A DNA stretch of 64,000 bases, taken from an uncultured Paraburkholderia sp. (GTDB taxonomy: Bacteria; Pseudomonadota; Gammaproteobacteria; Burkholderiales; Burkholderiaceae). Location of the stretch: the NCBI GenBank assembly GCA_940746715.1, contig CALNWN010000002.1:496001-560000 (forward strand), read 5' to 3'. The notes under the pieces are model-generated. The model was not told where the DNA came from. It made no database searches and worked only from the letters and a program-made list of their open reading frames with translations. Positions 8,135-23,569 of this stretch are shown in pieces. Positions within the stretch are counted from its first letter, which is position 1. Each line of letters begins with the position of its first letter. The position numbers and the translations under genes were made by a program.

Positions 8135-8284
8135 TTATTTGACGATGTCGATCAGCTCGACTTCGAACGTCAAGTCGCTGTTCGGCGGAATGGTGCCCAC
8201 AGCGCGGCTGCCGTAAGCGGTGGCAGCCGGGCACGTCAGTTTGGCGTTGCCGCCCACTTTCATGGTCTGGACGCCTTGCGTCCA
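8135..8284 (-). pseudogene. FKBP-type peptidyl-prolyl isomerase, C-terminal fragment
   Basis: Reading leftward from 8284, the frame gives WTQGVQTMKVGGNAKLTCPA, then YGSRAVGTIPPNSDLTFEVE and a TAA stop at 8135. This is the C-terminal half of an FKBP domain, including the conserved WTQGVQTM and IPPNSDLTFEVELIDI core strands. Its N-terminal half lies more than 9 kb away at 17488-17736. Joining base 17488 to 8284 restores an uninterrupted FKBP (VIPC-WTQGV). It has no start of its own. Confidence 0.93.
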
Positions 8285-8311
8285 GTAGCGTTATTTTACG
8301 AAATTTTCTGC

Positions 8312-8505
8312 GTAAACCGACAACTGAGTGAGTGGCTGCGAGAATTGCCAGATATAGCGTGCGTAGCGCAGCTTCCAACCTGACACACGTGATTCATCAA
8401 CGGCCTCCGTCTTCCGAACGTAAACTTGCATCAACCGGTTCGAACAGGCAAAAATGTAAACGTAGCCTGTCGCCCTTCCCCGTTGGTTAGAGGCAAAGTG
8501 TAAAC
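8312..8505. repeat. GTAAAC direct repeats at the left end of the mobile element
   Basis: Four copies in the same orientation lie at 8312-8317, 8420-8425, 8456-8461 and 8500-8505, within 220 bases of the left junction. The third shares the longer AATGTAAAC with the right end. A TTTACG/CGTAAA inverted pair flanks 8295-8316 directly at the junction. They look like recombinase arm or core sites. Confidence 0.6.
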
Positions 8506-8554
8506 CACACCAAGTCTAGATGAACGGCAAAAGCGCACAAGCCTGCTCGCCGCA

Positions 8555-8593
8555 GGGCAGTCGGGGCCGGGTTCCACCCGGCCCCGACTGCCC
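8555..8593 (-). terminator. Perfect 18-bp hairpin at the end of the element operon
   Basis: The arms 8555-8572 and 8576-8593 are perfectly complementary over 18 GC-rich bases with a 3-base loop. It lies about 100 bases after the helicase stop and between the last gene and the left end. No long T tract follows, so it may act as a transcription block, an RNA 3' end stabiliser or a recombination-related structure. Confidence 0.7.
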
Positions 8594-8689
8594 AGAGCAT
8601 AGGGTCGCTTCAGCCAGTCAAAGTCCCTTTCGCGACATAAAAGCGGCTTCGCCGCATTTATTCCACGGTGGGCTTGACAGTCTTCCGCT

Positions 8690-10983
8690 CTATGCCGAGT
8701 CGAGTATCGCCAATGTCCTTCCAGCTTCAGTCTCTTTCAACAGGACTGGCAATGTAACGTACCGCCGTGTCGCTGAAGCGGGCGCCTGAATTGCCCAGCA
8801 GACAACATCCATGTCACCGACTAAGACAACCTGTTCAACACCTCGCGTAATTGCCGTATATATCAACGTCTGGTCCAACAGGCGAGTGGCTCGCAACGGC
8901 ACAATGACGCGCTTGAACTGGCTCCCTTGACTCTTGTGCACTGTAATCGCATAGGCATGGGTCAGCGCGTGCAGTTGCTTCGCGTTGAGAGCATATTCTT
9001 GACCCTCGAAAGAGCACAGACAACAAACATCATCGAAACTGGAAGCTTCGACGGCACGCGTGACCTTCCGAGCGCCCCATTTCTTAAACCCAAGTCATAG
9101 TCGTTTCGGTGAACATCACGAGGTCACCAACGCGGATTGACAGACGGTCAAGCGTCCTGGCATTCACTCGACCAAATTCAGCATCCAGATAGCTGACGCA
9201 ATCCGCATCCTTGTGATACCTGCCATGCAGCAACATATTCAATCCGATGACGCCGCCGTCGCCATTACGAGTGACAGAGAGCACTTGCACATCGCCATTT
9301 GTCCCGTCGCCACCGAGCTGCTCGTATAACTCACGAACGAAATCATCTATCTGTGCATCCGGACAGCGTACGAACGAGACACCTGAGCCATACCCGGAGA
9401 ACTCTGCCCACGTGGCCAGAATGTGACTATGGATGGCGGCTGCAACTTGCGGAATGCCACCCGCCGAGCTCTGCCGTGTGACAACCTTTAGCTCGACCTG
9501 TGGAATCGAGGGAATGTCGACCAAGGCATGCAGCACGAGCCCTGGGCCAATAGGCGGCAGTTGCGACGGGTCCCCGACCAACACCAGTCTGATGCCGTTT
9601 GGCAAATGCTTGAGAAGACGGTACATGAGCACAACGTCAATCATCGAAACCTCGTCGACGACCACTACCGACCCCAGCGCGATGTCGGAGCTCTGAAACT
9701 TCGTCGTGAAGGCGGCGATTGTCATGCTCTCCCGCCCGGTAGCCTCGCTCATCCGCTGTGCAGCGCGTCCAGCCAAAGCCAGTTGGTAAATCGGCGTGCC
9801 CGGTTGAACGGAATCCAGCATTGAATACACCGCTTTCAGCACCGTTGTCTTCCCGGTGCCCGCGCCACCCAATATCACGCATAGGCTCGAGGTTGCGCAC
9901 GCGACTACAGCGTCGCGTTGCTCGTCGGTCAATCGAATGCCGTTGCCGCTCTCATAATCAGTCAGCAAGCCTTCGATGCCCGAATGGACTTGACCTGCCT
10001 TGGCGAAGAGGGATGTTTGACCGTGCGCGTCCTCGCCGGAAGCCAACTGACGGAAACGCTGTACCAAATACCCCTCGATGATAAACATTCCGGTTGGTTG
10101 GTACAGGTCCACTGTTCACACATATTGCGAGGAGGTGGCCGCAGAATCGAGCGCTTCATCAATGAGCTCCGTCGACCCGAGAAGACGGCGCAGATACTGC
10201 CGTAAGTCGCTTTCAGGAAGACATGTGTTGCCGTTCTTCAAGCAACGATAGAGAGACTCTTCGATAGCTGCTTCAAGTCTACAAGGGTCGCTCTCAGCAA
10301 TTCCAAAACGCTTCGTGGCGATATCATCGACGAGGGACCAGCTCGCTTCGAATGACAGCAGCACATACGGATTCTCTTCGATTCTCGCTTGTGCCGTGTC
10401 CTTGTAGAAGCTCAACACCTTTGCGCCAATTCTTCGAGGTATCGCAAGGGCGTCCAGCCAAAGGAGCACGCTTGCGACTGCATGCTTTCTGAACGCCAGG
10501 CAAAGAACTTCAGCAACCTGAGCGCGCTCACGACCTTGCTGAGTTCGTCCAGATTGTGCCCTTCGATAAGCTGCACAAGCTCAGGGCCGAAACGTGAGTA
10601 CAGCTTCGACGCTTTGACGACGCCGATACCCTGGCAGTCTGGACACTCTGCAATCCAGGATATCAGGTTCCTGCCAGATGGTTTAACCAGTTGCGCGTGT
10701 GTAGCCTCGATTTGCAGCTCGAAGGCCACTTGTCCGTTTCTTGTCGTAATCTTCGCCTCTTCGTCGCACCTGCTACGAGCCAACGCTGCCCCTTTTCGAC
10801 AAGACTCGAATCCGAAATCAGCTGGTAACCACAGACCACCACGTACGTGTCGTTATCGTCCGTACGTGCAGTAAATATGACGCCGCTGTTCCTTCGCGAC
10901 TTCGGATTGCGATGACACGCAACTCGTATGATGGGGCGCTCATGGGCGAATGAATCTACCGGTACTAGCCAGATGCTAGTCAA
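8690..10983 (-). pseudogene. RecD2-like superfamily 1B helicase, frameshifted
   Basis: The sequence encodes about 765 residues once four single-base losses (near 10770, 10450, 9100 and 9065) are repaired; an in-frame TGA is at 10116. The start is a TTG at 10983, overlapping the preceding gene. Order: N-terminal domain, helix-hairpin-helix region (GIGVVKASKLYSRFGPE), RecD2-type middle (IEENPYVLLSF), Walker A GGAGTGKTT, Walker B VVVDEVSMID, motif III LVGDPSQLPPIGPG, then HKSQGSQFKRVIV and motif VI YTAITRGVEQVVLVG. RecD2 enzymes are 5'-3' DNA helicases. As cargo or core gene of a mobile element, it might act in DNA processing or defence (inference). Confidence 0.85.
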
Positions 10984-11433
10984 TCATCTTGTACTGCGCG
11001 AGTTGAGCTTTCAACTCGGCCACCTCTGCTCGCAGTGCGGTTGCTTCCGCTCTCAATGCCGCGTTCTGTTCCTCCACCGCTTTCAAACGCTGTTCGACTT
11101 TGCCCTTTGTCGACATGATGCGTTTTACGGTGGCCTCATCGGTCCGAGCCGCCTCCGCGTCAGCGGCGTCGTAGCCGCCCCGAGGGCGTGACAATATCCC
11201 GTCATCAGCTAGCTGCTTCTCGGTAGCGTCCAACAACTTGGCGAGGTTTGAGTTTTGTCGGAATGCTGCTCGGTCAAAGCCGCATTCCATAGCGATTTCA
11301 GAGCGGTTTAGCTTACCTGCACGAACATAGTCGTCCCAGTCGTGCGCTGTATTGCGCTCAGTAATCCACGACGCAAAGCGCTTCGCACTTTCTTCACCCT
11401 GCTGTTTTCCGTTGAGATTCTCAGTCTTCGTCA
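10976..11433 (-). CDS. Small coiled-coil protein of the recombinase operon (VPA1267-like)
   Basis: The intact 152-residue protein starts at the ATG at 11433, inside the end of the recombinase gene and 10 bases after GGAGGT. Residues 15-75 (RFASWITERNTAHDWDDYVR, KLNRSEIAMECGFDRAAFRQ) look like a small DNA-binding helical domain. The last 50 residues are a heptad coiled coil (EQNAALRAEATALRAEVAEL). From memory this resembles the VPA1267-type proteins encoded beside mobile-element integrases; the match is unverified. Its role may be to assist the recombinases. Confidence 0.65.
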
Positions 11434-12735
11434 TCGTCGACCTCCACAGGGACATCGCTATCTAGATTTAGACGGCCGATAAAGTCGTCGACTGACTCGC
11501 CGGCTTCCACCACAAGCTCGTTCACCATGCCTTTGTGGGCCATGAGAACAACCCGTGCAAGGTCGATGTAATGCTTGTACGTAGTGTCCAGGCTCTCATG
11601 CCCCATCTGGTTCCGCAAGACTTCAGCGCAAGCCGCGAACAGGACATCGGTGGTTTCGCTCAACAACTGCTCGCCGAAGAAGTTGATGAGGAACTGTGTG
11701 GGCCACCAATGGCGAGCGTCGTAAAAGGAGATTGATTCGCGGAAATTCGGGTTTCGCGACATTGCAGCGACTTTCGCGGCGTGCGTGCGCACAGCAACAT
11801 TCTCCGGGTGACAGGCGTTCCTTTTTTGTCAGAAAAAGCTGGGATAAGGGACACTTGGTCCCGAACCGCGCCCCGTATCTTTCCGCGCGCTCGCGATAGT
11901 AGGGTTTAATGTAGTTCCGCTCGAGCGCCTGTAGGTCTTTTGCATTCACACGTATTGTGCGTGATTTATTGCCTTTGCCAACCGTCGTGTACTCAAATGT
12001 TCGAGCCCCCTTGTCCATCGACGTGTACGGCATGATGTGAGCGTTCTTGCCGCTGCCATAATAAGGAAAGCCACACAGTTCAATGGGCCTCAACGCAGTT
12101 CCCCGCGACAGTCGAAACATCTCCGCGTAAACCGGGTCAGAGAACACTTCCATCAGTTCACGAATTTCTTCCTTCATTATAAGCGATTTCGCGGCTTTCT
12201 GTCAACGCTCTTTATCTAGCACTCGTATCGAGCTTGAGTCAATTTTCTCGGTCTCGTGCGACTGAAGATAGTGCAACATGTCGTCGCTCTTGAAGTTAGC
12301 TACCCACGTCTTCAGACTCACATTGACGTTGGTGACATAGCTGTTGCGATTCAGCCAATGAAACATGTTGAGAACGACTTTCGCGTCCTCGAAGATAGTG
12401 TGGGATGTGGGCCCTGCACTGACGGTCGCCAGTCGAGCCTGCTGCCGTGCAACCTGCCAACGCTTGATATCGTCGTTATCGACGATAGAGTGATACTGAG
12501 AAACCGAAATTTTTCGATACTTCTCCTGTCCAGACAAGAAGCGGTAAAACATCGCAACCAGTCCGCTGTATCGCATGGAGGTCTTTATCGATGCACCAGT
12601 CGTTTTGCTCAGATAGACGTTCGGGTGACTCAACAGGACGCGTTGTCCGGCCTCCTCGGCGATAAGGATGTAGTGAGACGCGTCCTTGCCCAAATGGTCA
12701 ACGTACGAGATGACTTCTCGACTGATATCTAGCAT
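11421..12735 (-). pseudogene. Tyrosine recombinase D (third recombinase), frameshifted
   Basis: This is the most classical integrase of the three: 439 codons after repair. The N-terminal SAM-like core-binding part is at 1-180. Catalytic motifs follow: RGTALRPIEL (Arg I), FYDARHWWPTQF (second Arg/His block), NQMGHESLDTTYKHYI (His and nucleophile Tyr). An in-frame TGA at 12202 stands where a Trp would fit (DKER-stop-QKAAK). Two single-base losses near 11813 (A run) and 11802 (G run) shift the frame. It begins by a TGATG overlap with the HTH/coiled-coil gene. Confidence 0.85.
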
Positions 12736-13727
12736 CACTCACCCTGCGTAATCCTGTACGTCACAATCTCATCAACACGCGGGTCAGATATCGACATCCC
12801 TTGTATCTTGTCCGCTATCGCTATCTCATGTTCAGGCACATATGGGAAATAGAAAGCGCGCTGCGCTTTCGCCACACTCTTCGACTCACAGTACGGCAGG
12901 AATATCTTGACCGGCGAGTCCACGCTGAGCTTCGAAAGTACGAGAGTCTTCAACTGCAGTGCGTTGAATATCGGCGTGCGCACAATAACGAAGTTCCCGC
13001 TGCGTCTCCCATGGAAGTTTTTGCAAAAAAATTCGAACGAACACAGATATCGCTCGATGAATACCACGATTGTCGCATCGGCAGGCCCCACCTTTTTTGC
13101 ACGTGCGAATGCTTCCAGAACGGCTTTGAGCTTCTCCTCCTCAAATTTCGTTGTGTCGTCGGAACCCTGGTATGCGGTAAAAATCTTCTTGAGGTTGACG
13201 TCACACGCCATCACAGTGCCCAACGCTGCGTTCTGCGCGGGCGCGGCATCCCGTCTCGCTAGCTTGAGTGCTGTCAGCTCGGCCTCAAGCGATTTGATTT
13301 GATTTATCAGGATATCGTTGTGTAGGCTTTGAGCCTCAAGTCGGGCTCGCAATCCGTCGACGTCATGTAAAGCCAAATCCGATTTCATGAGCGAGGTGAC
13401 ATACTCCGCGCGTACACGAGCAATCTCCTTGTCCTTGCCCGCCTTTAGCGACACAAGTTCTGCTTCAAGAATTTTCAGTCTTTCGATGCCTGTCGAAAGT
13501 GCCGTATTCTTACCGTCGTCATCCAGCTCCTCAGACACTGACTTCTCACCGGAAATATAGGGTTCCAGGTGACCGTAATAGCGATGCAAAGCCTGTCGCG
13601 TGATTCCCGCTGCGGCAGCCAACTCCCACTTGAGTAGCTTCTTGCCCGGATGCTTTATTGCGTGGCTGGCAATTATCTGCATCAACCGCTGCTCGGTATC
13701 AATACTTCCTTTGCTGTGCTCGCTCAT
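12735..13727 (-). CDS. HTH/coiled-coil protein of the recombinase operon
   Basis: The intact 330-residue protein is the only long undamaged gene of the element. Residues 25-60 form an HTH (LLKWELAAAAGITRQALHRY), as in KfrA/TetR-type DNA-binding heads. A long coiled coil spans about 75-160. A globular C-terminal domain (170-330) contains IVVFIERYLCSFEFFCKNFH and I do not recognise it. It overlaps recombinase B by ATGA and recombinase D by TGATG, so the three are surely co-translated. It may bind element ends or regulate the operon; a similar position is held by GmtX-type proteins in Gamma-Mobile-Trio islands (unverified). Confidence 0.75.
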   Translation of the reverse strand: MSEHSKGSIDTEQRLMQIIASHAIKHPGKKLLKWELAAAAGITRQALHRYYGHLEPYISGEKSVSEELDDDGKNTALSTGIERLKILEAELVSLKAGKDKEIARVRAEYVTSLMKSDLALHDVDGLRARLEAQSLHNDILINQIKSLEAELTALKLARRDAAPAQNAALGTVMACDVNLKKIFTAYQGSDDTTKFEEEKLKAVLEAFARAKKVGPADATIVVFIERYLCSFEFFCKNFHGRRSGNFVIVRTPIFNALQLKTLVLSKLSVDSPVKIFLPYCESKSVAKAQRAFYFPYVPEHEIAIADKIQGMSISDPRVDEIVTYRITQGE

Positions 13728-15202
13728 GGCTGGGCCTTTCGCGCAAAACTTGCAATCTCATAGAGCGAAGCTGAACGCGTCTCAAGCTCCACGAGCCGTC
13801 GCTCCGACAACTCGACCTTCTTCGCTATCGTGCCGAGTGTGCGCTCTTTCAATTGGCCCGAGGCGACCAGATTCGAATAAAAGACGATGTTTTGCCGTAG
13901 CCCCGTCTTTGCCGCGTCAAGCAAAATGAGATTTCTACATTCGATGTGGCAATTGTTGGGATTAGGCAGACTTCCTCCTGCCAGCGAATGCGAATCGATA
14001 CAAGGGGGCTTCGGTCCATCGATATGGTTGTCGTGAGTGAGACAGTAGGCGCCTGCTCCCAACGATGTTCGGTGAATATAAATGGGCTCACCGGAGCGCA
14101 CGAGATGTGACACGTAATCGTGAATTTCGGCGCGTATGACCTCGCCAGCAAATAGCGTTTCACGGCTTGCCAACTTTCCGGCAAGTTCATCTGCGAGAGA
14201 ACCCGCATAAACTCCGGACCGTAGTCCGGATATGATTGCAGTGAAATCTTCCGTAAAGCTGACCTCGATTGCCTGTACCACGCTGCGCACCAGGTACGGG
14301 TTACGCGCGATATATTTCAGTGTCATCGCGTAACTGGTGTGGCCAAACAAAAGTCGGATGATGTCGATATTTCGCTCGTCCCTGTTAATCAGAATCTCCG
14401 CAATCGTTTTACGGAAGCGATGGCAGTGAACTCCTTCAAGGCCGAGTCCATCTTCTAGCTGTTCAATGATTGCTCCGAGCGTCGCATACGCGTTACGGGA
14501 GCTTTTCGCTGTTTCTATTTGGCTATGATTGTGTGAGCCGAGTGCTCAACGATATCGGCTCGACGTTCCTTGGTGATAACGCGATTGGCGGCGACATTCA
14601 ATCGGAATGACTCGGGTATAAGTTTCTGAGCAGATAGTTGTAACCACAGGTTCAAGAAGAAATACACATGTTTGTATCTGGTCACAAAGCCGCTATCCCT
14701 CGCCTTATCCAGTGCGTCGTTAGCTTGGTCGCGTCAACCGCAGCAATCTGCTCAGCTGTGGCGTTCAGCTTGTTATCAGAAAAAACATAGGTTTCTATTA
14801 GACCGAATGCATAGCCAGTTACTCGTGTTGTACTATGGCTCCGGGACCAGCCCCACGGATTGTATTCCGGGAGCACGTGGAACATGATGGCGCGTTTAAG
14901 GTCGTTAATGCCAGCGACTTCACCCTCAAACGTGACGATGTTATTCTCCGTCAGCCTCCACGTTGCATCTCGATAGAGTGAGTCATCCGAAACCGGGAAA
15001 TCTCCGGCTGGGCAGGCTGCTAGCTTCATCAGCAAGACGCTTCTTGCACCTCGGAGCAGCTCGCTTTCCGAGTCACGCAAATCCAGGCCCAGCTCTTCCT
15101 CGGCAGCATCAATTTCGTCTTCGTCGTATTCGTCGCGCGAGATGGCGACATCGACTCCTGCAACTCATCAAAGCCGCTCTCCCCGATTTCCTTGATGCGC
15201 AT
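13724..15202 (-). pseudogene. Tyrosine recombinase B, frameshifted
   Basis: Starts at ATG 15202 behind GGGGAG, 11 bases after recombinase A. After repair of three single-base losses (near 15150, 14725 and 14520) it is 494 codons. The C-terminal half has the recombinase signature VHCHRFRKTIAEIL (H-x-x-R), LFGHTSYAMTLKYI (His and candidate nucleophile Tyr). A Cys/His-rich segment follows (CLTHDNH, CIDSH, CHIEC) that could bind zinc, then a C-terminal helix-rich tail. The N-terminus is acidic (DEYDEDEIDAAEEEL). The first catalytic Arg block is not obvious. Confidence 0.8.
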
Positions 15203-15212
15203 AGAATCTCCC

Positions 15213-17410
15213 CTAGCTGACGGTTAGCTCTGAATCGTCAAACAGCACCTCGAACACTGCACGGTCGACGGGAAACAGTGGGCTGTGTCGCTGTTGATAC
15301 CCAAACGCCCGTTGAACAGCCCGGTCGTCATCCCAGTTAGCGAGCAGCCAATCGATGACATCACGCTCTGCGTTGAGAGACGAGCTGAAGTCTGATTCCT
15401 CAGCGTTAGACAACGACTCTTCAATTTGAGCGTGCCGGTCAATCAAATATGGCAGAGAGTCTTCAAAGACACAGCATTGACTGCAGAACAGGCAGTTGGT
15501 AGAGGGGACGCATTTTCGTCCCATTGTGAATCTCTGTTCGAAGCCGGGCCAATCGGGCGCGAGTCGATTTCGGCAGCCCCAAAGACCCTTTTCGTGCCCT
15601 GGAATGAAGAATATAGTCAGGCCGTCGCTGACTTGCGCGGGCGTTGGAGCTTGCCCCATCAATCCTGTGAACTGGCGCGTTCGCAGAAGCCCAGCGACGG
15701 TTTCCAGCTCGGCGCGAAGACGTGCACGACGCTCCTTCATGGCCAAGCCGGAGCTGTCGTAGTAAATGTCCGTCGTTTCCGTGCTGGCGTGGCCCTGAAG
15801 AAGCGAAATAACGCTGAGCGGCTTCTCTTTGCGATGCATCAGCATCCAGGTCGGGCGCAATCTCGGCGAGAGTTCTCATGTATGGGATATTGTTTCAGGA
15901 ATTCGCTGACTCCTGCAGTGAAGAGGGATACTGCCGACAAACTGTAGAAGCGCCCAAACTGTACCCAGTTGCCCGGATGTCGAAGGCAAAGAAACAGCTG
16001 GCTCGTTGAGGCCACGTCATCTTTTACGGTGATAGCGTCAAGGGGTCGAGCGGCTAGGGGCTGAGATAGCGCTTCCGCTAGTTTGATTAGATTGTAGGCT
16101 GAGTATCTGTTCGTCCTGCTGCTCGTCGCCTTGTAGAGTTTCGGACTGTAATACGGAAGTTCATTTCCTTGACTTCGGTTTTTCTCGGAAAAAATTGTCA
16201 TTTGGCCCTCTGCCAAGAAACCCGACAACTTTGCCTCGAAGCTCTTCGAGTCAATGGCAAGGACTGTTTCCTTATTCCACCCCGTTTGCACCATCAGAAA
16301 AAGTATCAACGCAGTCATATCGGTGGCGCTTGGATAATACTTATTCAACAGCTCTGCAACCGTTGGGCGAACCTCTTCTCGCGCTCTGTAACGCTGGCAA
16401 TAGAAGGGCAACAAACAACGAAGCACATCGCCATCCTTCTCGTACCAGGACTCCTTCATCCTAGTATCGTACCTTTCTCCCAGCTCTTCGAGGTCCATTT
16501 CCAGCGGGTACCCGTGCTGGAGGAGCGTTTTTAACACCCGGAATTCGTCGAGACGGAGAGTCGACACCTTGGTCGCAAATGGGTTAACGGGGATGTCCAA
16601 CTTGAATACCGCCCCCTCACCTGCGTAATACGCTTTCCAGGCGTTGCCAAGATGTCCTCCCGTGGTTGGCAGCTTGTGCATCGAAATCAGCAGCGGGTCC
16701 TCGCTTCTGCTGAGATAGTCCCTCACCGTGTAAATGCTTGGAGGCTTAACGTTATGTGCAAGGGCGTATTGATACCAGCGAACGACACTCTCACAGGTTA
16801 CCGCCGGATTTACGATGTTACTGAGTTCGACGAAGGTATAAGGCGTTGCCTCCTCAACCCTCACACGGTTCTGGAGGATGGCTCGAAGTTTATCGACATG
16901 CCTTTTCAGTGCACTTTCCAACTCCGCGAAAGTGCTTTCGTCTAGCGGCTCAGTCTTGTTGCCCCGGTCATAACTGATGCGGGGCATCTCGAGCACAGGG
17001 ATGGCGCCGGTTTGTTTTGCAACATAATTTAATGCGCCCTTTAACCGAGCAAGCGGTGTCTCGGCGCGCACTGTCAAGTTGCCCAGCTTGCTTTCTTTCT
17101 GCAGATACCGTTCGAACTGGCGCGTCACGTCACCAGTCAAATCTGAGAGGAAATTGAGGTGCAACCCAATCGGATTGAGCCGATGATACTTTTGTCGGAA
17201 ATCGAGGAATGTCACCACCGCCTGTCGCACTTCAAGGCCTTTGCTTTGGCTGCGATTCGGGGCGTAGTGAAGGAAGGTGTAATGCAACTGAGCGCAGAGC
17301 TCGTCGGCGTGCAAAAACTGAGGGTGAGTGAGGTAGGGCTCGCATGACAGGCGAGTGCCGGAGGCGGTTGCTACGTCGGTTACGCTTGCGTACGCCCTAG
17401 TATCAGCCAT
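15213..17410 (-). pseudogene. Tyrosine recombinase A, large form, frameshifted
   Basis: First gene of the element operon, beginning 78 bases inside the right junction. With one base restored near 15865 it has 733 codons. It consists of a long N-terminal region, a core at about 400-600 (TGWNKETVLAI, where classical integrases have Arg), then LRPTWMLMHRKEK, LLQGHASTETTDIYY carrying His and Tyr candidates. A Cys cluster (CLFCSQCC) lies in the C-terminal 200 residues. The lack of a clear first catalytic Arg suggests a divergent or partner-dependent recombinase. The right-end repeats at 17423-17484 overlap its promoter region. Confidence 0.82.
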
Positions 17411-17422
17411 CTCGACCCTGAC

Positions 17423-17484
17423 GTTTACGTTACGGTAAAATGTAAACTATCATAGTCTGGTTTACATTACAATCCATCGTAAAC
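17423..17484. repeat. GTAAAC/GTTTAC inverted repeats at the right end of the mobile element
   Basis: AATGTAAAC (17439-17447) and its exact complement GTTTACATT (17460-17468) form a 9-bp inverted repeat with a 12-base spacer. Further copies are at 17423-17428 (GTTTAC) and 17479-17484 (GTAAAC, three bases from the junction). Paired inverted sites around a spacer are the geometry of tyrosine-recombinase binding sites. They also cover the probable operon promoter, so the recombinases may autoregulate. Confidence 0.6.
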
Positions 17485-17487
17485 TAA

Positions 17488-17736
17488 GCACGGAATCACG
17501 CGGTTGAGCGGAAACGTTGCCGGACCGCCGTGTTTCGCGGACGCGTCGAATTCAGTGCCGTTTGCAAGCGTGCCGCGATAATTGACCTTGACGACATCGG
17601 TGGCGGCCGGCTGCGCGCCGGTGCCCTGCACCAGATGCTCGACCACGACGCCCGAAGGCAGCTTCTCCGTGGAAGCGGCAGCCATTGCCGTCGAGGAAAG
17701 AACAGTAGCGGCGAGCAAAGCAACGATAGATTTCAA
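17488..17736 (-). pseudogene. FKBP-type peptidyl-prolyl isomerase, N-terminal fragment
   Basis: Starts with a TTG at 17736, nine bases after GGAGG. A signal peptide (KSIVALLAATVLSSTAMAAA) directs it to the periplasm. The FKBP domain begins with VKVNYRGTLANGTEFDAS and runs to PLNRVIPC at 17488, where the mobile element enters; five foreign codons follow to a stop at 17467. The catalytic pocket is split, so no functional isomerase can be made. Confidence 0.93.
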
Positions 17737-17768: not shown

Positions 17769-18654
17769 CTAGCGCAACGATAGTCGCGCGCCGTCAATCG
17801 AGCCGCAGTACGGAAACGCCGCCCGCCCGGGCATCGCCCGCGCGATGAAATCGGCGAGCGCCGCTTCGCGTTCGCGGACCCCGGCCAGCGCCACGGGGTC
17901 GAGCAGCGCGGTGATCACTTCTTCGCGCTCGCGGCTGGCCTGCGCGATCACATCGCCATAGGGACTCCAGATCGCGCTCGCGCCACAGGTGTCCCAGCCG
18001 CCCGTCGTGCCGGCGTGATTTGAGAGCAATACATATAGCGTATTGTCGAACGCCCGCGCCGGGAACCAGATGCGCGACTGGTGATAGCCGGACTTGACGC
18101 TGAAGAGCCCGCTCACGAGATAAGCGTGCGCATCGTCGATTGCAGCGTTGCGCGCGTGCTCGGGAAAGCCCGAGTCATAACACACGCCGAGCGCGAGCCG
18201 CCATCCGTCCAGTTCGAGGATGCAGCCTCGCGTGCCCGGCCGGTAGATTTCCGCTTCGCTTCTATCTATATAGATACTGCTTGTGATAGGGCTCGACGTC
18301 CTCGCCGCGGCAATCGAACACGAGCGAGGAAATATGCAGGCCGTGCGCCGCGCGCGTGGCCGCGCCCACGACGACGGAAATGCCACGCCGGCAACACACC
18401 TCGCGGATTGGATCGAGGCGTGTATCCGACGCGTCGAATGCGTACCTTGCAGGGTCGCCGGCAATCAGGCCGGGCTCGTAGCCGCTCAGGAATTTCTCGG
18501 GAAAAACCACCAGTCTGGCGCCGCGGTCGGCGGCAACACCGGTCAATTCGACCGTCTTCGCGATGTTCGCTGTCACATCTCCGCAAACCGGCTGCGCCTG
18601 AGCAGCCGCGATTTGCAGGGTCACTCGAGGCAACGCTGCGAGCTTGTTATCCAC
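17769..18654 (-). pseudogene. Carbon-nitrogen hydrolase (nitrilase superfamily), frameshifted
   Basis: Catalytic residues are all present across two frames: Glu in VVFPEKFLSGYEPG, Lys in PYHKQYLY, Cys in LGVCYDSGFPE. A TAGA TAGA tandem duplication (18261-18268 on the plus strand) adds four bases, giving a stop right after KQYLYR; removing it restores one 294-codon frame. I start at GTG 18654; an ATG at 18696 is possible. The family hydrolyses amides or nitriles through Glu-Lys-Cys. The substrate is unknown. Confidence 0.85.
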
Positions 18655-18879
18655 GTAAACTCCGTTATGAATCGAACCGCGGGTTGAGCGCCACACGGTT
18701 GCCGACGGCAGGTGCCGACGGCTCAGCTAGGTGTCGTTTGAAGCCTCGGCATTTAAACACGGACCGCTGCGGCGTGTCAGCGCGATTTGGTGAACCAGCG
18801 CCTTGCGCGCAGAGTCCATCAGAAAATGCGCCGCGAAGAATCGCCGGCCGCCTGATCCGATGTTAACGAGCGCTTGTCA

Positions 18880-21520
18880 ATGAACGAACCCGTCGACCCC
18901 GACAAACAGGACGTTCTGCCGCCTCCCGCCGCGCCTGAGCGGCGCCGCGCGCCTCGACGCTCGCGAGCCGGCCTTCGAGCCGCAGCCCTTCGTCATCGAC
19001 GAAGAAGCGGCGCGCCGCCCTTTTGCCGCGAAGCTCGAGGAGTGGTTCGAACAACGCGGTTGGCAGCCGTTCGACTTCCAGAGGGAAGTCTGGCGGGAAA
19101 TGGAAAGAGGCGCGAGCGGCTTGCTGCATGCAACCACGGGCGCGGGCAAGACGTGGGCCGTGTGGTTCGGTGCGCTCGCCGCATTTGGCCGGAACGGCTC
19201 GTCCAGCGCCAGTTCCAGGTCCACGCCCGTGTCCAGTTCCGCGCCCACGCGCAAGCAGGCGGCACCCACGCAGCCCGAGCCGCTCACGGTTCTGTGGATT
19301 ACGCCGATGCGCGCCCTCGCTGCCGACACGGCGCGCGCATTGCAAAGCTCGGCCACCGAACTGGCCGTGCCGTGGACAGTCGGTTTGCTAACCGGCGACA
19401 CCTCCCCGGCCGAACGCGCGCGCCAGAACCGGCGCATGCCGTCCGCGCTGCTTACGACACCCGAGAGCCTGACGCTCATCCTCACAAGGCCCGATGCGCG
19501 GGAAGTGCTCTCCCATGTGAGGCTCGTGATTGTCGACGAATGGCACGAATTGCTCGGCAACAAGCGCGGCACGCATACGCAGCTGGCGCTCGCGCGACTC
19601 GCGCACTGGCGGCCCGGCTTGCAGGTGTGGGGTTTGTCGGCGACGCTCGGCAATCTTGCCTTCGCAGCCGAGGTACTGCTCGCGCCGGTCAGGACACCGC
19701 GCGTGAGCGTGCACGGCAAGTTGCCGAAAGCGTTGATCGTCGATACGGTCATTCCGGAGACCATCGAGCGGTTCCCGTGGGGCGGTCATATGGGCTGCGC
19801 CAGGTCCCGGCCGTGGCCGCTGCAATCGGCGAGGCGAGCACCTCGCTCGTATTCACGAACACCCGCTCGCAATGCGAAGTCTGGTATCAGGCGCTGCTCG
19901 AAGCGCGGCCCGACTGGGCCGGCGCGATCGCTTTGCATCACGGCTCGCTCGATCAGGAAGTGCGCGAGTGGGTCGAGCGCGGCCTGAAGAGCGGCCTTCT
20001 GAAAGTGGTTGTGTGCACATCGAGTCTGGATCTCGGCGTCGACTTTCTGCCGGTTGAACGCGTCTTCCAGATCGGCTCGCCGAAAGGCGTCGCGCGTTTG
20101 ATGCAGCGTGCGGGCCGCTCAGGCCATGCGCCCGGCCGGCCGTCGCGCGTGACGATCGTGCCCACGCACGCGCTCGAACTCGTCGAAGCGGCGGCCGCGC
20201 GAAGCGGTCGAAAAGCGGCAAATAGAAGGCCGCGACACGCCTGAAAAACCGTTCGACGTTCTGGTCCAGCATCTGGTGACGGTCGCCATCGGCGGAGGCT
20301 TCGAGGCGCGCGCTCTATGACGAAGTTCGCAGCGCCTACGCGTACCGCAATCTGACGCAGCAGGAATTCGACTGGGCGTTAGGCTTCGTGGAAGGCGGCG
20401 GCACCGCGCTGCGCGCCTATCCGGACTACCACCGCGTGGTGCGCGAAAACGACGGCATGTACCGCGTGCCCCGCGAAGACTGGTGCGCCGGCATCGCAAC
20501 AACGTCGGCACCATCGTCGCGAACGGCACGCTCAATGTCGCCTATCTGGCGGGCGGGCGCATCGGCGCAATCGAGGAGTCGTTTATTTCACGCCTGAAAC
20601 CGGGCGCTATCTTTACCTTCGGCGGACGCGCGCTCGAATTGATTCGCGTGCAGGACATGACCGCGTGGGTGAAACGCGCGACGTCCGCGCGCGGCGCGAT
20701 GCCGCAATGGGCCGGCAGCCGCATGCCGCTCTCCTCCGAACTCGCGGAAGCGACCTTAACGATGCTGGCGCGCGCCGCCGACGGCATCTATGAGGAACCG
20801 GAAATGCGCGCGGTCCGGCCGCTGCTCGAATTGCAGCAGAAATGGTCGGCGTTGCCGGAGCCCGGCGTGCTGGTCGCCGAAGTACTCAAATCGCGCGAAG
20901 GCCATCACTTCTTCTGTTATCCATTTGCGGGGCGAACTGCACATCGATCGGTTTGGGCGCATTGCTGGCATGGAGAGTCGCGCGAGAAAAGCCGGGTACT
21001 TTTTCCATTTCAATGAACGACTATGGTTTCGAATTGTTGTCCGCGCAACCATTCGACTGGGTCGCGGAATTGCAGCGCGGGTTGCTGTCGGCGGAAGAAC
21101 TGGATCGCGACATTCTCGCGAGCCTGAATTCTTCGGAATTATCGAGGCGCCGCTTTCGTGAAATTGCGCGCGTGTCCGGACTCGTGTTTCAGGGGCACCC
21201 CGGGCAGCAGAAGAGCGCGCGGCAATTGCAGGCGTCGAGCGGCCTTTTCTACGAGATATTCCGCAATCACGACAGCGGCAATCTGTTACTCGACCAGGCG
21301 GACGCGGAGGTGCTTTTGCAGGAACTCGACGCCAAACGCATTCGCACCGCGCTGCAGCGGATGAACGCGAGCCGCCTCGTTCTCACGCAGCCGAAAAAAA
21401 CCGACTCCGTTTGCGTTTCCGCTCATCGTCGGACGGCTGCGCGAGAAAGTCAGCACGGAGAAGCTCGCGGATCGCGTGGAGCGGATGCTCGCGGAGCTGG
21501 AAAAGGCGGCCCGCGTATGA
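18880..21520 (+). pseudogene. Ligase-associated DEXH-box helicase (Lhr-like), multiply frameshifted
   Basis: Fragments in all three frames together encode about 870 residues. Motifs: Walker [34 protein letters not shown] (DEAH-like), LSATLGN, then [36 protein letters not shown], and the Lhr-type winged-helix C-terminus ending [10 protein letters not shown]. Frameshifts lie near 18935, 19795, 20215, 20310, 20492, 20930-20950 (including an ATCG duplication at 20943-20950) and 21400 (an extra A in an A run). In complete clusters this helicase works with an exonuclease, an ATP-dependent ligase and PdeM; the first two are absent here. The stop overlaps pdeM (ATGA). Confidence 0.88.
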
Positions 21521-22180
21521 AGCCTGCTGCGCTGCCGGTCGACATTGCGGGCCACCCGCTCGTGCTATCGAGTTTGCGCGCGGCCTTCGATCCTGCGCTG
21601 CGCTGCCTGCTCGTCGCCGATGCGCATTTCGGCAAGGACGCGGTATTCCGTGCGCGCGGCGTGCCGGTGCCGGTTGGTTCCACCGGGGACAACCTGATGC
21701 GCCTCGACATACTCATCGCCAAATTCGAACCGGCCATGCTGGTCTTTCTCGGTGACCTGCTGCATGCGCGCGAGGCGCACGCCGAAGAAACGCTCGATGC
21801 GTTGCAAGTCTGGCGCACGCGGCACGCGAGTTTGCGGATCGTGCTGGTGGAAGGCAATCATGACCGGCACGCGGGCGCCTTACCTGAGGCGCTTCGCGTC
21901 AACTATGTGCAGGAGCCGTGGCGCATCGGACCGTGGGCGCTGTGTCATCACCCGCAGACCGCCGATGGTGCCTATGCACTAGCCGGCCATCTGCATCCCG
22001 TCTATCGGATCGCAACGCGTAACGACTCCGTCCGCGTGCCATGCTTTCGTTTCGGCGGGCAATGCGGCGTGCTGCCGGCGTTCGGCAGCTTTACCGGCGG
22101 CGCGCGCGACGACGGCCGCATGAACGGAGAAAAGGGTTTTCGTCGTGGCTCACGACAAGATCATTGAAGTGCCGGGCTAG
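21517..22180 (+). pseudogene. pdeM: Ligase-associated endonuclease PdeM, 3' frameshift
   Basis: A metallophosphoesterase of about 220 residues with motifs LLVADAHFGKDA, LVFLGDLLHAR, VEGNHDRHAG, CHHPQ and LAGHLHPVY, matching PdeM of the ligase-associated DNA damage response cluster. The catalytic domain is intact. One extra G near 22133 (AAGGGTTTTC) shifts the final residues, so the natural end VFVVAHDKIIEVPG is lost and the frame ends at 22167. This truncation is mild and activity might remain. It starts inside the helicase stop. Confidence 0.82.
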
Positions 22181-22294
22181 GCCGTCACACCGAGCACGGC
22201 AGCGCGTTTTCCTCATACCAGTCGCAACAGACCACGCGGATTCGCGGCCAGCCAACACATTCGCACGCGATCTTTTCCGCAAGCGCATGCACCA

Positions 22295-23569
22295 TTGCCC
22301 GCGCTCGGCGCCGCACTGTTTGACAGCCAGGCCCGCGCAAGCCCGCCGCGCGGGCGTCGCGGCATACGCGGGCAGCTGGTGCTGCCCGAAGACGCCGGCT
22401 TCAACGAAGCGCGCAGCATCTGGAATGCGATGATCGACCGCCGCCCGGCGATGATCCTGCGCTGCGCGGGAGTCGCCGACGTGCGCCGCGGCATCGCCTT
22501 CGCGCGCGCCAACAACCTGCCGCTCGCAGTGCGCGGCGGCGGCCATAACATTGCCGGCAGCGCGCTTTGCGAAGACGGCCTCGTGATGGATTTCTCGCGG
22601 ATGAAATCCGTGCGGATTGACCCCGTGGCAAGACGCGCGTATGTCGAACCCGGCGCGACGCTCGCGGACTTCGATCATGAAGCGCAGGCCTTCGGGCTCG
22701 CGACGCCGCTCGGCATCAATTCGACCACCGGCGTTGCGGGCTTGACGCTTGGCGGCGGCGGCAACTTCGGCGTCGTCACTTCGTTCGAGTTTGCGCTGCA
22801 TCCGGTCGGACCGATGGTGTACGGCGGGCTCGTCGTTTTTCCGCTCGCTCAGGCCAGGGACGCACTCGTCAAATATCGCGCGGCATCCACGCAGATGCCC
22901 GACGATCTGTCCGTATGGGCGGTGCTGCGGCTCGCGCCGCCGCTGCCGTTCCTGCCCACCGACGTCCACGGTCAGCCGGTCATCATCTTCGCGAACTACT
23001 ACACGGGACCGACCGCCAACGGTCCTTCGGCGGTCGCACAAGTGAAGACGTTCGGCACGCCGGTCGGCGAACATCTCGGCGAAATGCCGTTCGTGATGTG
23101 GCAGCAGGCGTTCGACCCGCTGCTCACGCCGGGATCGCGCAACTACTGGAAGTCGCACAATCTTGCCGGCATCGACGACGGCCTCATCGACGCACTACTT
23201 CAGTCGATCGAGAATCTGCCTTCGCCGCAGTGCGAGATTTTCTTCGGCCAGATCGGCGGGCAAACGCAGCGCGTGCCCGTGAACGCGACCGCTTATTCGA
23301 ACCGCGATACGCACTACGCGATGAACGTGCATGGCCGCTGGGAAAATCCCGCCGACGACGATCGTTGCATCGGTTGGGCTCGCGCATTTTTCGACGCCGC
23401 GGTGCCCTTCTCGCTCGGCAGCGTCTACGTGAACTTCATGACCCAGGAAGAAGGAGGCCGCGTTGCCGATGCATACGGCCCGAACTACGAACGGCTCGTC
23501 GCTGTGAAGAGCCGCTACGATCCGCATAACCTCTTCCGTCATAACCAGAACATTCGTCCCGCCATGTAA
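22295..23569 (+). pseudogene. FAD-linked oxidoreductase (berberine bridge enzyme-like) with internal deletion
   Basis: The product has the VAO-type FAD domain: AVRGGGHNIAGSA (covalent-FAD His region), GLATPLGINSTTGVAGLTLG, then a C-terminal BBE domain (NYERLVAVKSRYDPHNLFRH). In relatives, GLTLGGG is followed by about 43 residues before GGGGNFGVVTSFEF; here the two join directly at 22751-22765 in a GGC repeat. This indicates an in-frame loss of about 130 bases that removes part of the FAD site. The N-terminus is also irregular (SPPRGRRGIRG), and the TTG start is only formal. Predicted inactive. Confidence 0.72.

Follow-up and report, generated by a model that had tools for sequence, protein, structure and literature searches.

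The stretch of DNA analyzed here, referred to as the window, comprises 64,000 nucleotides of an uncultured Paraburkholderia sp. (assembly GCA_940746715.1, contig CALNWN010000002.1, positions 496,001 to 560,000) and contains a 9.2-kb insert at positions 8285 to 17487, which splits a minus-strand gene of the FKBP type and carries a recombinase operon with a helicase gene. The 3' half of the interrupted gene was assigned to 8135 to 8284 (minus strand) from the flank sequence and the rejoined frame, and the 5' half to 17488 to 17736 (minus strand), with a TTG start assumed; joining of the flanks, 8284 to 17488, restores a single open frame. The gene presumably encodes an FKBP, judging by its motifs. 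Among 58 genomes of the genus, 52 matched the FKBP 5' half, and the junction was uninterrupted at all 29 loci that were compared, with the locus of the window excluded. The empty site was TGCGTCCAGCACG at 16 of these loci and deviated by 1 or 2 bases at the remaining 13. The original prediction that the two halves belong to one split gene holds, but boundaries exact to the base do not, because AG is present at both ends (8284-8285 and 17487-17488) and the boundary is precise only to two bases. The GC content is 0.53 in the insert and 0.62 in the window.

Six genes on the minus strand form a single operon within the island, with the helicase as its last member. The first gene, rec1 (15213 to 17410), begins some 77 bases inside the right island end and encodes a long recombinase-like protein without the first catalytic arginine; it is broken once, 523 open codons being followed by a continuation in another frame. 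The second, rec2 (13724 to 15215), encodes a long tyrosine recombinase and is broken, with roughly 190 to 200 central codons gone, the first arginine motif (placed by eye) among them. These are followed by htcc for a helix-turn-helix (HTH)/coiled-coil protein of 330 amino acids (12735 to 13727), by rec3 for a short tyrosine recombinase (11421 to 12738; three pieces and an in-frame stop), by the gene for a VPA1267-family coiled-coil protein of about 160 amino acids (10976 to 11461), which overlaps the start of the helicase frame, and by the gene for a RecD2-like helicase of superfamily 1B (8690 to 10983), which lies in at least five pieces in different frames. Only the third and the fifth genes are open reading frames (ORFs), so that this copy looks dead; the island is decayed. 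One rec2 piece matched the phage integrase family at 1.7e-6, above the gathering score, and the other recombinase pieces gave a weak match or none. The helicase piece at 9087 to 10115 matched the RecD2 model TIGR01448 at 1.3e-56. A comparison of the small coiled-coil protein with the VPA1267 family had been suggested, and the protein is a member: it reached 1.3e-24 and 87 bits against a cut-off of 90, and 93 bits in the six-frame search.

Intact versions of the four recombination genes exist in the same genus. The gene rec1 was present in 2 of 98 related genomes, with the window's own counted, and rec3 in 2 of 144 genomes of the genus; only the own genome matched among 399 drawn from the order. 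Locus L005 (genome G026) has the same order with intact genes for rec1 (747 amino acids), rec2 (692), the HTH/coiled-coil protein (about 330), and rec3 (438), accompanied by degraded remnants only of the VPA1267 gene and the helicase gene. Of the recombinase sizes of 733, 494 and 439 codons proposed for the window, the second is therefore not the native one. The target gene of L005, which presumably encodes a fimbrial usher, differs from that of the window. Retention of the gene order by two copies in different target genes supports the claim that this is a real site-specific multi-recombinase element.

At the left, operon-distal junction (8279 to 8289, plus strand), the core CGTCCAG is followed by the non-host tetramer TAGC, at the position of which most empty FKBP sites have CACG. 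The adjoining element end, GTTATTTTACGAAATTTTC (8290 to 8308, plus strand), is identical in L005, and the complete left junction reads CGTCCAGTAGC-GTTATTTTACGAAATTTTC in the window and CGTCCAGCACG-GTTATTTTACGAAATTTTC in L005. The empty usher-type site of L140, where the gene is uninterrupted, is ACGTCCAGCACGACG; the site was present with differences in L142, L144, and L150, and the script did not align it in the other 8 of the 12 comparison loci. An 11-bp core, CGTCCAGCACG, is common to the empty FKBP-type and usher-type sites. The L005 junction together with the L140 empty site means that two unrelated target genes have this core in common, and the 11-bp core inside coding sequence is, as read from these alignments, the target of the element. 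At the right junction (17487 to 17492, plus strand), the host hexamer AGCACG is kept. The operon-proximal end is flanked by this host hexamer, the distal end by another hexamer, AGTAGC.

This polarity agrees with feature (iii) of the strand-biased circularizing integrative elements (SEs), as described by Idola et al. 2023 (PMC10214605), namely, a host 6-mer at the operon-proximal end and a donor 6-mer at the distal end. The agreement concerns one copy, the only one with both junctions, and the choice of the six bases that represent the spacer is the analysts' own reading. The GInt islands, which are islands with a ginABCD operon, are flanked by imperfect direct repeats of 10 to 17 nt (Bardaji et al. 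2017, PMC5385486). The two ends of the window element have AG in common, inside a hexamer that differs elsewhere. A motif search placed four GTAAAC motifs near the left end (8312 to 8505, starting at 8312, 8420, 8456, and 8500) and another four, GTTTAC or GTAAAC, close to the operon-proximal end on the right (17423 to 17484), so that 8 of the 17 such sites of the window fall into the two end stretches of the island; those at the left end are possible binding sites for a recombinase or an accessory protein. A palindrome at about 8555-8593, downstream of the helicase gene, matched itself inverted in the genome search and is probably a terminator.

More distant relatives came from the GTDB species set, in which a rec2 alignment used as query yielded 19 loci. 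Ten Pseudomonas loci (L051 to L060, clade A, 37-39%) keep the order rec1-rec2-HTH-rec3, with a separate rec1 in nine of them and L059 as the exception. Five loci of clade B (L061 to L064 and L068, four from Pseudomonas and one from Stutzerimonas) have rec1-rec2-HTH, a VPA1267-like gene of 128 amino acids and then rec3; the two VPA1267-like proteins scanned reached 40 to 42 bits, which is under the cut-off. The remaining four (L065, L066, L067, and L069) show the GInt layout short-long-long-small and were assigned to this type by architecture, not against the sequences of the GInt paper. The plasmid islands L038 and L039 carry the same recombinases. Searches of viral contigs gave no close relative (none in one search, six distant matches in another), a plasmid tblastn search with the 330-amino-acid HTH/coiled-coil protein gave no match, and neither did a phage tblastn search with the VPA1267 protein of locus L121. 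In six clade A loci (L051 to L054, L056, and L059), a gene for 276 to 300 amino acids with a P-loop kinase-like beginning (IIGLAALARSGKDTVASMLL) lies a short distance ahead of rec1; a closely similar gene is present in L055, and one scanned copy was without a clear NCBIfam match. After the recombinase operon of L039, on a Pseudomonas megaplasmid, genes for a pair of an ATPase and a UvrD-type helicase and for a restriction system (18287-22590) look like defense cargo.

Locus L121, from another proteobacterial genome, is an open version of the whole arrangement: rec1 (607 amino acids), rec2 (650), HTH (360), VPA1267 (145; 132.6 bits), helicase (712), and rec3 (418), with the helicase gene positioned before the last recombinase gene. 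An ORF that ends ten bases before this six-gene operon (L121:3816-4409) is a possible insertion site and presumably encodes an HD hydrolase. Absence of the helicase from related copies had been named as a sign that it is cargo only. The helicase is indeed optional, the searches having detected it in none of the 15 Pseudomonadaceae loci, but cargo only does not follow, since the helicase gene lies inside the operon of the intact relative L121.

Profile comparisons connect all three recombinases to the GInt-like operons: rec1 matched gene 2 (97.7%), rec2 gene 3 (99.2%), and rec3 gene 1 (96.6%). Because of these ties, the new family that had been considered is not supported as an isolated one. 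The first arginine and the tyrosine are present in 11 of 11 aligned rows of rec2 and in 12 of 12 of rec3, whereas the first arginine of rec1 is replaced by Asn (10 of 11 rows) or Ser (L121), with all motif positions assigned from the integrase motifs. On the basis of these alignments, rec1 looks catalytically degenerate, its recombinase fold being assigned by profile homology, while rec2 and rec3 look like active-type tyrosine recombinases; the HTH/coiled-coil protein is probably architectural. PDB searches with the AlphaFold models of the HTH/coiled-coil protein (mean pLDDT, the predicted local confidence, of 76; pTM, the predicted template-modeling score, of 0.47) and of rec1 (pLDDT 66, pTM 0.46) gave no match with an E value of 0.001 or lower; the hits of the rec1 model include lambda Int, XerA, and Cre, every one at E above 0.5.

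The helicase and its VPA1267-family partner recur in other operons. In the order, 2 of 300 genomes matched the window piece at 1e-25, the own genome included; the other one, L101, has the pair with the helicase last in a recombinase operon. In the phylum, 16 of 398 genomes, own included, matched the L101 helicase at 1e-40, and all 16 other places were fetched. Since an element helicase served as query and few candidates were scored per genome, these counts are not unbiased rates. A VPA1267-like ORF lies directly upstream of the helicase at seven of the 16 places (L119, L120, L121, L122, L124, L126, and L130). At an eighth, L125, a VPA1267-like ORF and three stretches resembling the operon genes of L126 are situated 1.5 kb and more upstream. 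The other eight (L123, L127, L128, L129, and L131 to L134) gave no VPA1267 match; among these, L129 and L134, the latter a 5.4-kb contig, had weak distant recombinase matches, and the ORF scan found no helicase in L128. Pfam confirmed three upstream genes of L119 as recombinase genes, two with matches that stayed below the gathering score, and only the first upstream gene in L120, L124, and L126; NCBIfam confirmed the first one in L122 and L130.

Plasmids gave further arrangements. In L097 (Alteromonas), both neighbors of the helicase gene, a small gene and an integrase gene, overlap with it; the product of the small gene has a 51% profile match to VPA1267 and no NCBIfam match. In L098 (Rhodovastum), a VPA1267 gene (3.8e-11, under the cut-off) and the helicase gene are followed downstream by integrases. 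L100 (Acidiphilium) has genes of the Gamma-Mobile-Trio (GMT) islands, and its helicase gene is preceded by a small gene and followed by gmtX, L099 contains a helicase piece only, and in the GInt-like operon L065, from the species-set scan, the helicase is last. Of 45 plasmid records that match VPA1267, four were opened: two annotated GMT islands (L135 and L137) with gmtY, a gmtZ-type gene, gmtX, VPA1267, and the helicase; L136 with VPA1267 and a helicase piece of 501 amino acids near IS26; and L138. An even draw of 369 genomes of the class gave four VPA1267 matches at 1e-3, one of them, the own genome, above the cut-off. Overlaps of 1 to 8 bases between the helicase gene and its upstream neighbor recur; the exceptions are L126, where about 30 bases separate the two, and L125, where the distance is 1.5 kb. 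The region after the Alteromonas operon (L097:14954-24870) encodes a reverse transcriptase, a HEPN protein, and a type I restriction system, and a recA gene directly follows the GMT-like operon with helicase on the Acidiphilium plasmid (L100:15003-16043).

These gene orders indicate that VPA1267 and the helicase are a coupled pair that occurs in GMT islands, in other recombinase operons and in the element type of the window (L121). The helicase, which could not be placed at the outset, can now be placed as part of a recurring VPA1267-coupled pair and is no longer without parallel. It is probably not random cargo, an idea weakened by the operon positions in L121, L097, L098, and L100. The pair was not found described in titles and abstract beginnings of the literature searched, which did not cover the GMT paper (Mahata et al. 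2024). In Vibrio parahaemolyticus, VPA1266 is numbered next to VPA1267, and a PCR product of 1.9 kb lies within it, a hint of a possible gene of this size at that place in the prototype island.

Four element helicases were scanned (L065, L097, L098, and the window piece); TIGR01448 ranked first among the NCBIfam models for each, but all of them stayed under its equivalog cut-off of 500 bits. The closest solved sequence to the L121 helicase was 3e1s, which we take to be the Deinococcus RecD2. In a tree of 24 helicases, 16 of them labeled as element type and L125 labeled at that time as "other," the six generic helicases of L127, L129, and L131 to L134 formed one clade (100/100) without element-type members. 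The 16 element-type helicases, plus those of L123 and L125, fall outside the generic clade. The helicases of L097, L098, and L101 form long branches, and those of L097 and L101 are weakly nearer to the generic clade.

The arrangement could not be filed under GInt, GMT, or SE. The window element resembles GInt islands in having three recombinase-fold genes in one operon that starts at one island end, and rec3, rec1, and rec2 match the GInt-like genes 1, 2, and 3 by profile. It is unlike them in its order 2-3-HTH-1 (B-C-HTH-A instead of the 1-2-3-D of ginABCD) and in its extra HTH/coiled-coil, VPA1267, and helicase genes, and no GinD homologue was found, since htcc and the VPA1267 protein gave nothing over 40% against a three-row GInt_D profile. 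The GMT class was taken from citations in PMC12715929 and PMC12039261 and from NCBIfam names. A VPA1267-family protein is a companion in some GMT islands and is followed by a RecD2-like helicase in L135 and L137, but the opened GMT islands have gmtY, one gmtZ-type gene, and gmtX in place of three recombinases. The GmtX, GmtY, and GmtZ models matched neither the window pieces (E up to 1) nor the intact L005 proteins (E up to 10), GmtY touched only the N terminus of L051 rec3 (E 0.0013), and no GMT protein exceeded 40% in the profile comparison. Membership in the GMT class was rejected by these model searches. With SEs, the element shares two active-type recombinases, one degenerate recombinase-like protein, and small proteins, and the one copy with both junctions would fit the 6-base junction rule; it differs by its gene order, and an intA-tfp-intB-srap core was not found. 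The core of SE-6945 in L093, a locus assigned to SE-6945 by layout and the neighboring blaGMA-1, lists no helicase. Only rec3 matched short SE-type integrases, weakly (67% and 81%), in a test of low sensitivity because the SE references were single sequences. Recombinase in trio (RIT) elements, which are small and consist of three recombinases only, likewise have three tyrosine recombinases in a row and were compared by description only. The helicases resemble RecD2, with TIGR01448 as the best model, but remain under its cut-off and outside the generic clade.

The best explanation, to which a fair degree of confidence is attached, is that the island represents a decayed site-specific integrative element of the broad class to which the GInt, GMT, and SE islands belong, that its VPA1267-helicase module is swappable, and that it was perhaps copied out in the manner of SEs. 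It is carried by the architecture, the sharing of the target, the recurrence of the module and the junction pattern fitting the SE 6-bp rule at one copy, all read from sequence, while strand bias, recruitment, and the role of the helicase are what we infer from them. SEs form no empty site, and replication of a strand-exchange intermediate followed by an unknown clean-up step was proposed for them (PMC10214605). By a similar route, the recombinases of the integration machinery, which is composed of the degenerate rec1, the active-type rec2 and rec3, and the HTH/coiled-coil protein, would carry out a single-strand exchange between the two ends of the element. The VPA1267-family protein would bring the helicase to the free 5' end left by the tyrosine recombinase cut, and the helicase would peel off the exchanged strand. 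RecD2 unwinds in the 5'-to-3' direction, and by analogy the element helicase may do so too. Host replication would then produce a circular copy, and the donor copy would stay. The recurrence of the pair in operons of other mobile islands suggests that the helicase helps them move; being optional, it may be substituted by the host. A wider and rather doubtful version is that VPA1267 and the helicase are a dedicated, exchangeable copy-out module, swapped among unrelated recombinase operons of the GMT, GInt-like, and B-C-HTH-A types, which converts the strand exchange of tyrosine recombinases into a donor-retaining replicative transposition.

Several results weigh against this explanation. Neither VPA1267 nor this helicase type was found by BLAST or profiles in 10 of 10 clade A loci, where one large ORF of L060 scored weakly (2.9e-5), and no helicase was found by BLAST in 5 of 5 clade B genome loci; the contigs of L054 and L062 end soon after rec3. 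A search of whole clade A genomes for VPA1267 gave none in 7 of 8, and the match in G1264 falls outside the L058 stretch. L138 lists VPA1267 without a helicase after it, the GMT islands L082 to L085 list neither gene in an incomplete gene table, and the gene preceding the helicase in L065 and L100 had no VPA1267 match. The element-type helicases were not recovered as one clade (3 label changes compared to a shuffled mean of 6.9, with 2 of 500 shuffles as low), 0% of the bootstrap trees need one label change only, and the element-type branch includes an orphan helicase ORF, L123. Within 59 kb, the usher-type gene's C-terminal half was searched for but did not turn up, so that the right end of the L005 element could not be placed and one copy only has both junctions. 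The distal tetramer of L005 equals the host tetramer, so that the SE rule holds there only if the donor site had the same core. Operon genes were experimentally required in GInts (PMC5385486) and SEs (PMC10214605), and the word "helicase" was not found in their main texts; as these islands recombine with four genes and no mention of a helicase, a mechanistic need for it is unproven.

An alternative, which is unlikely, regards the helicase and VPA1267 as conserved cargo, for instance for anti-phage defense or DNA repair, captured beside the last recombination gene. This would agree with the optional presence of the pair, with the helicase as last gene in the window, L065, L101, L135, and L137, and with the start of GInt cargo right before or after the ginD stop codon (PMC5385486). 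However, the helicase gene is flanked by VPA1267 and a recombinase gene in L121, by a small gene and an integrase gene in L097, and by a small gene and gmtX in L100, it lies upstream of integrases in L098, and the short overlaps with the preceding gene recur outside L126 and L125. It is likewise improbable that the element is a GInt with a rearranged operon, the helicase of which aids an ordinary cut-out and paste-in excision, for example, by clearing bound protein or resolving Holliday junctions. The homology of the recombinases to GInt-like genes 1, 2, and 3 and the empty site seen in some GInt strains (PMC5385486) would be accounted for, but the order is not that of ginABCD, the GinD profile is matched by neither htcc nor the VPA1267 protein, and the hexamers have SE polarity at the sole copy with both junctions. 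That the frame breaks are sequencing errors in an intact and active copy is very unlikely, because, although the frame-split neighbors (17769-18696, spread over two frames, and 18874-20244, where frames overlap) mean that errors could be general, the central loss in rec2 and the in-frame stop in rec3 go beyond frame errors alone and the damage is uneven, with two of six genes open. These two genes beside the FKBP-type gene, presumably nitrilase-like and helicase-like, respectively, are each distributed over two frames by decay or base-call errors.

For the copying of multi-recombinase islands with no empty site left behind, the text of the SE authors names no helicase. The main interest of the present finding is the recurrence of the helicase module: a helicase that recurs in these operons, in many cases together with a member of one coiled-coil family and at times placed within the operon itself, offers a concrete candidate for the copying step, and the parts held in common link island classes that have been described separately.

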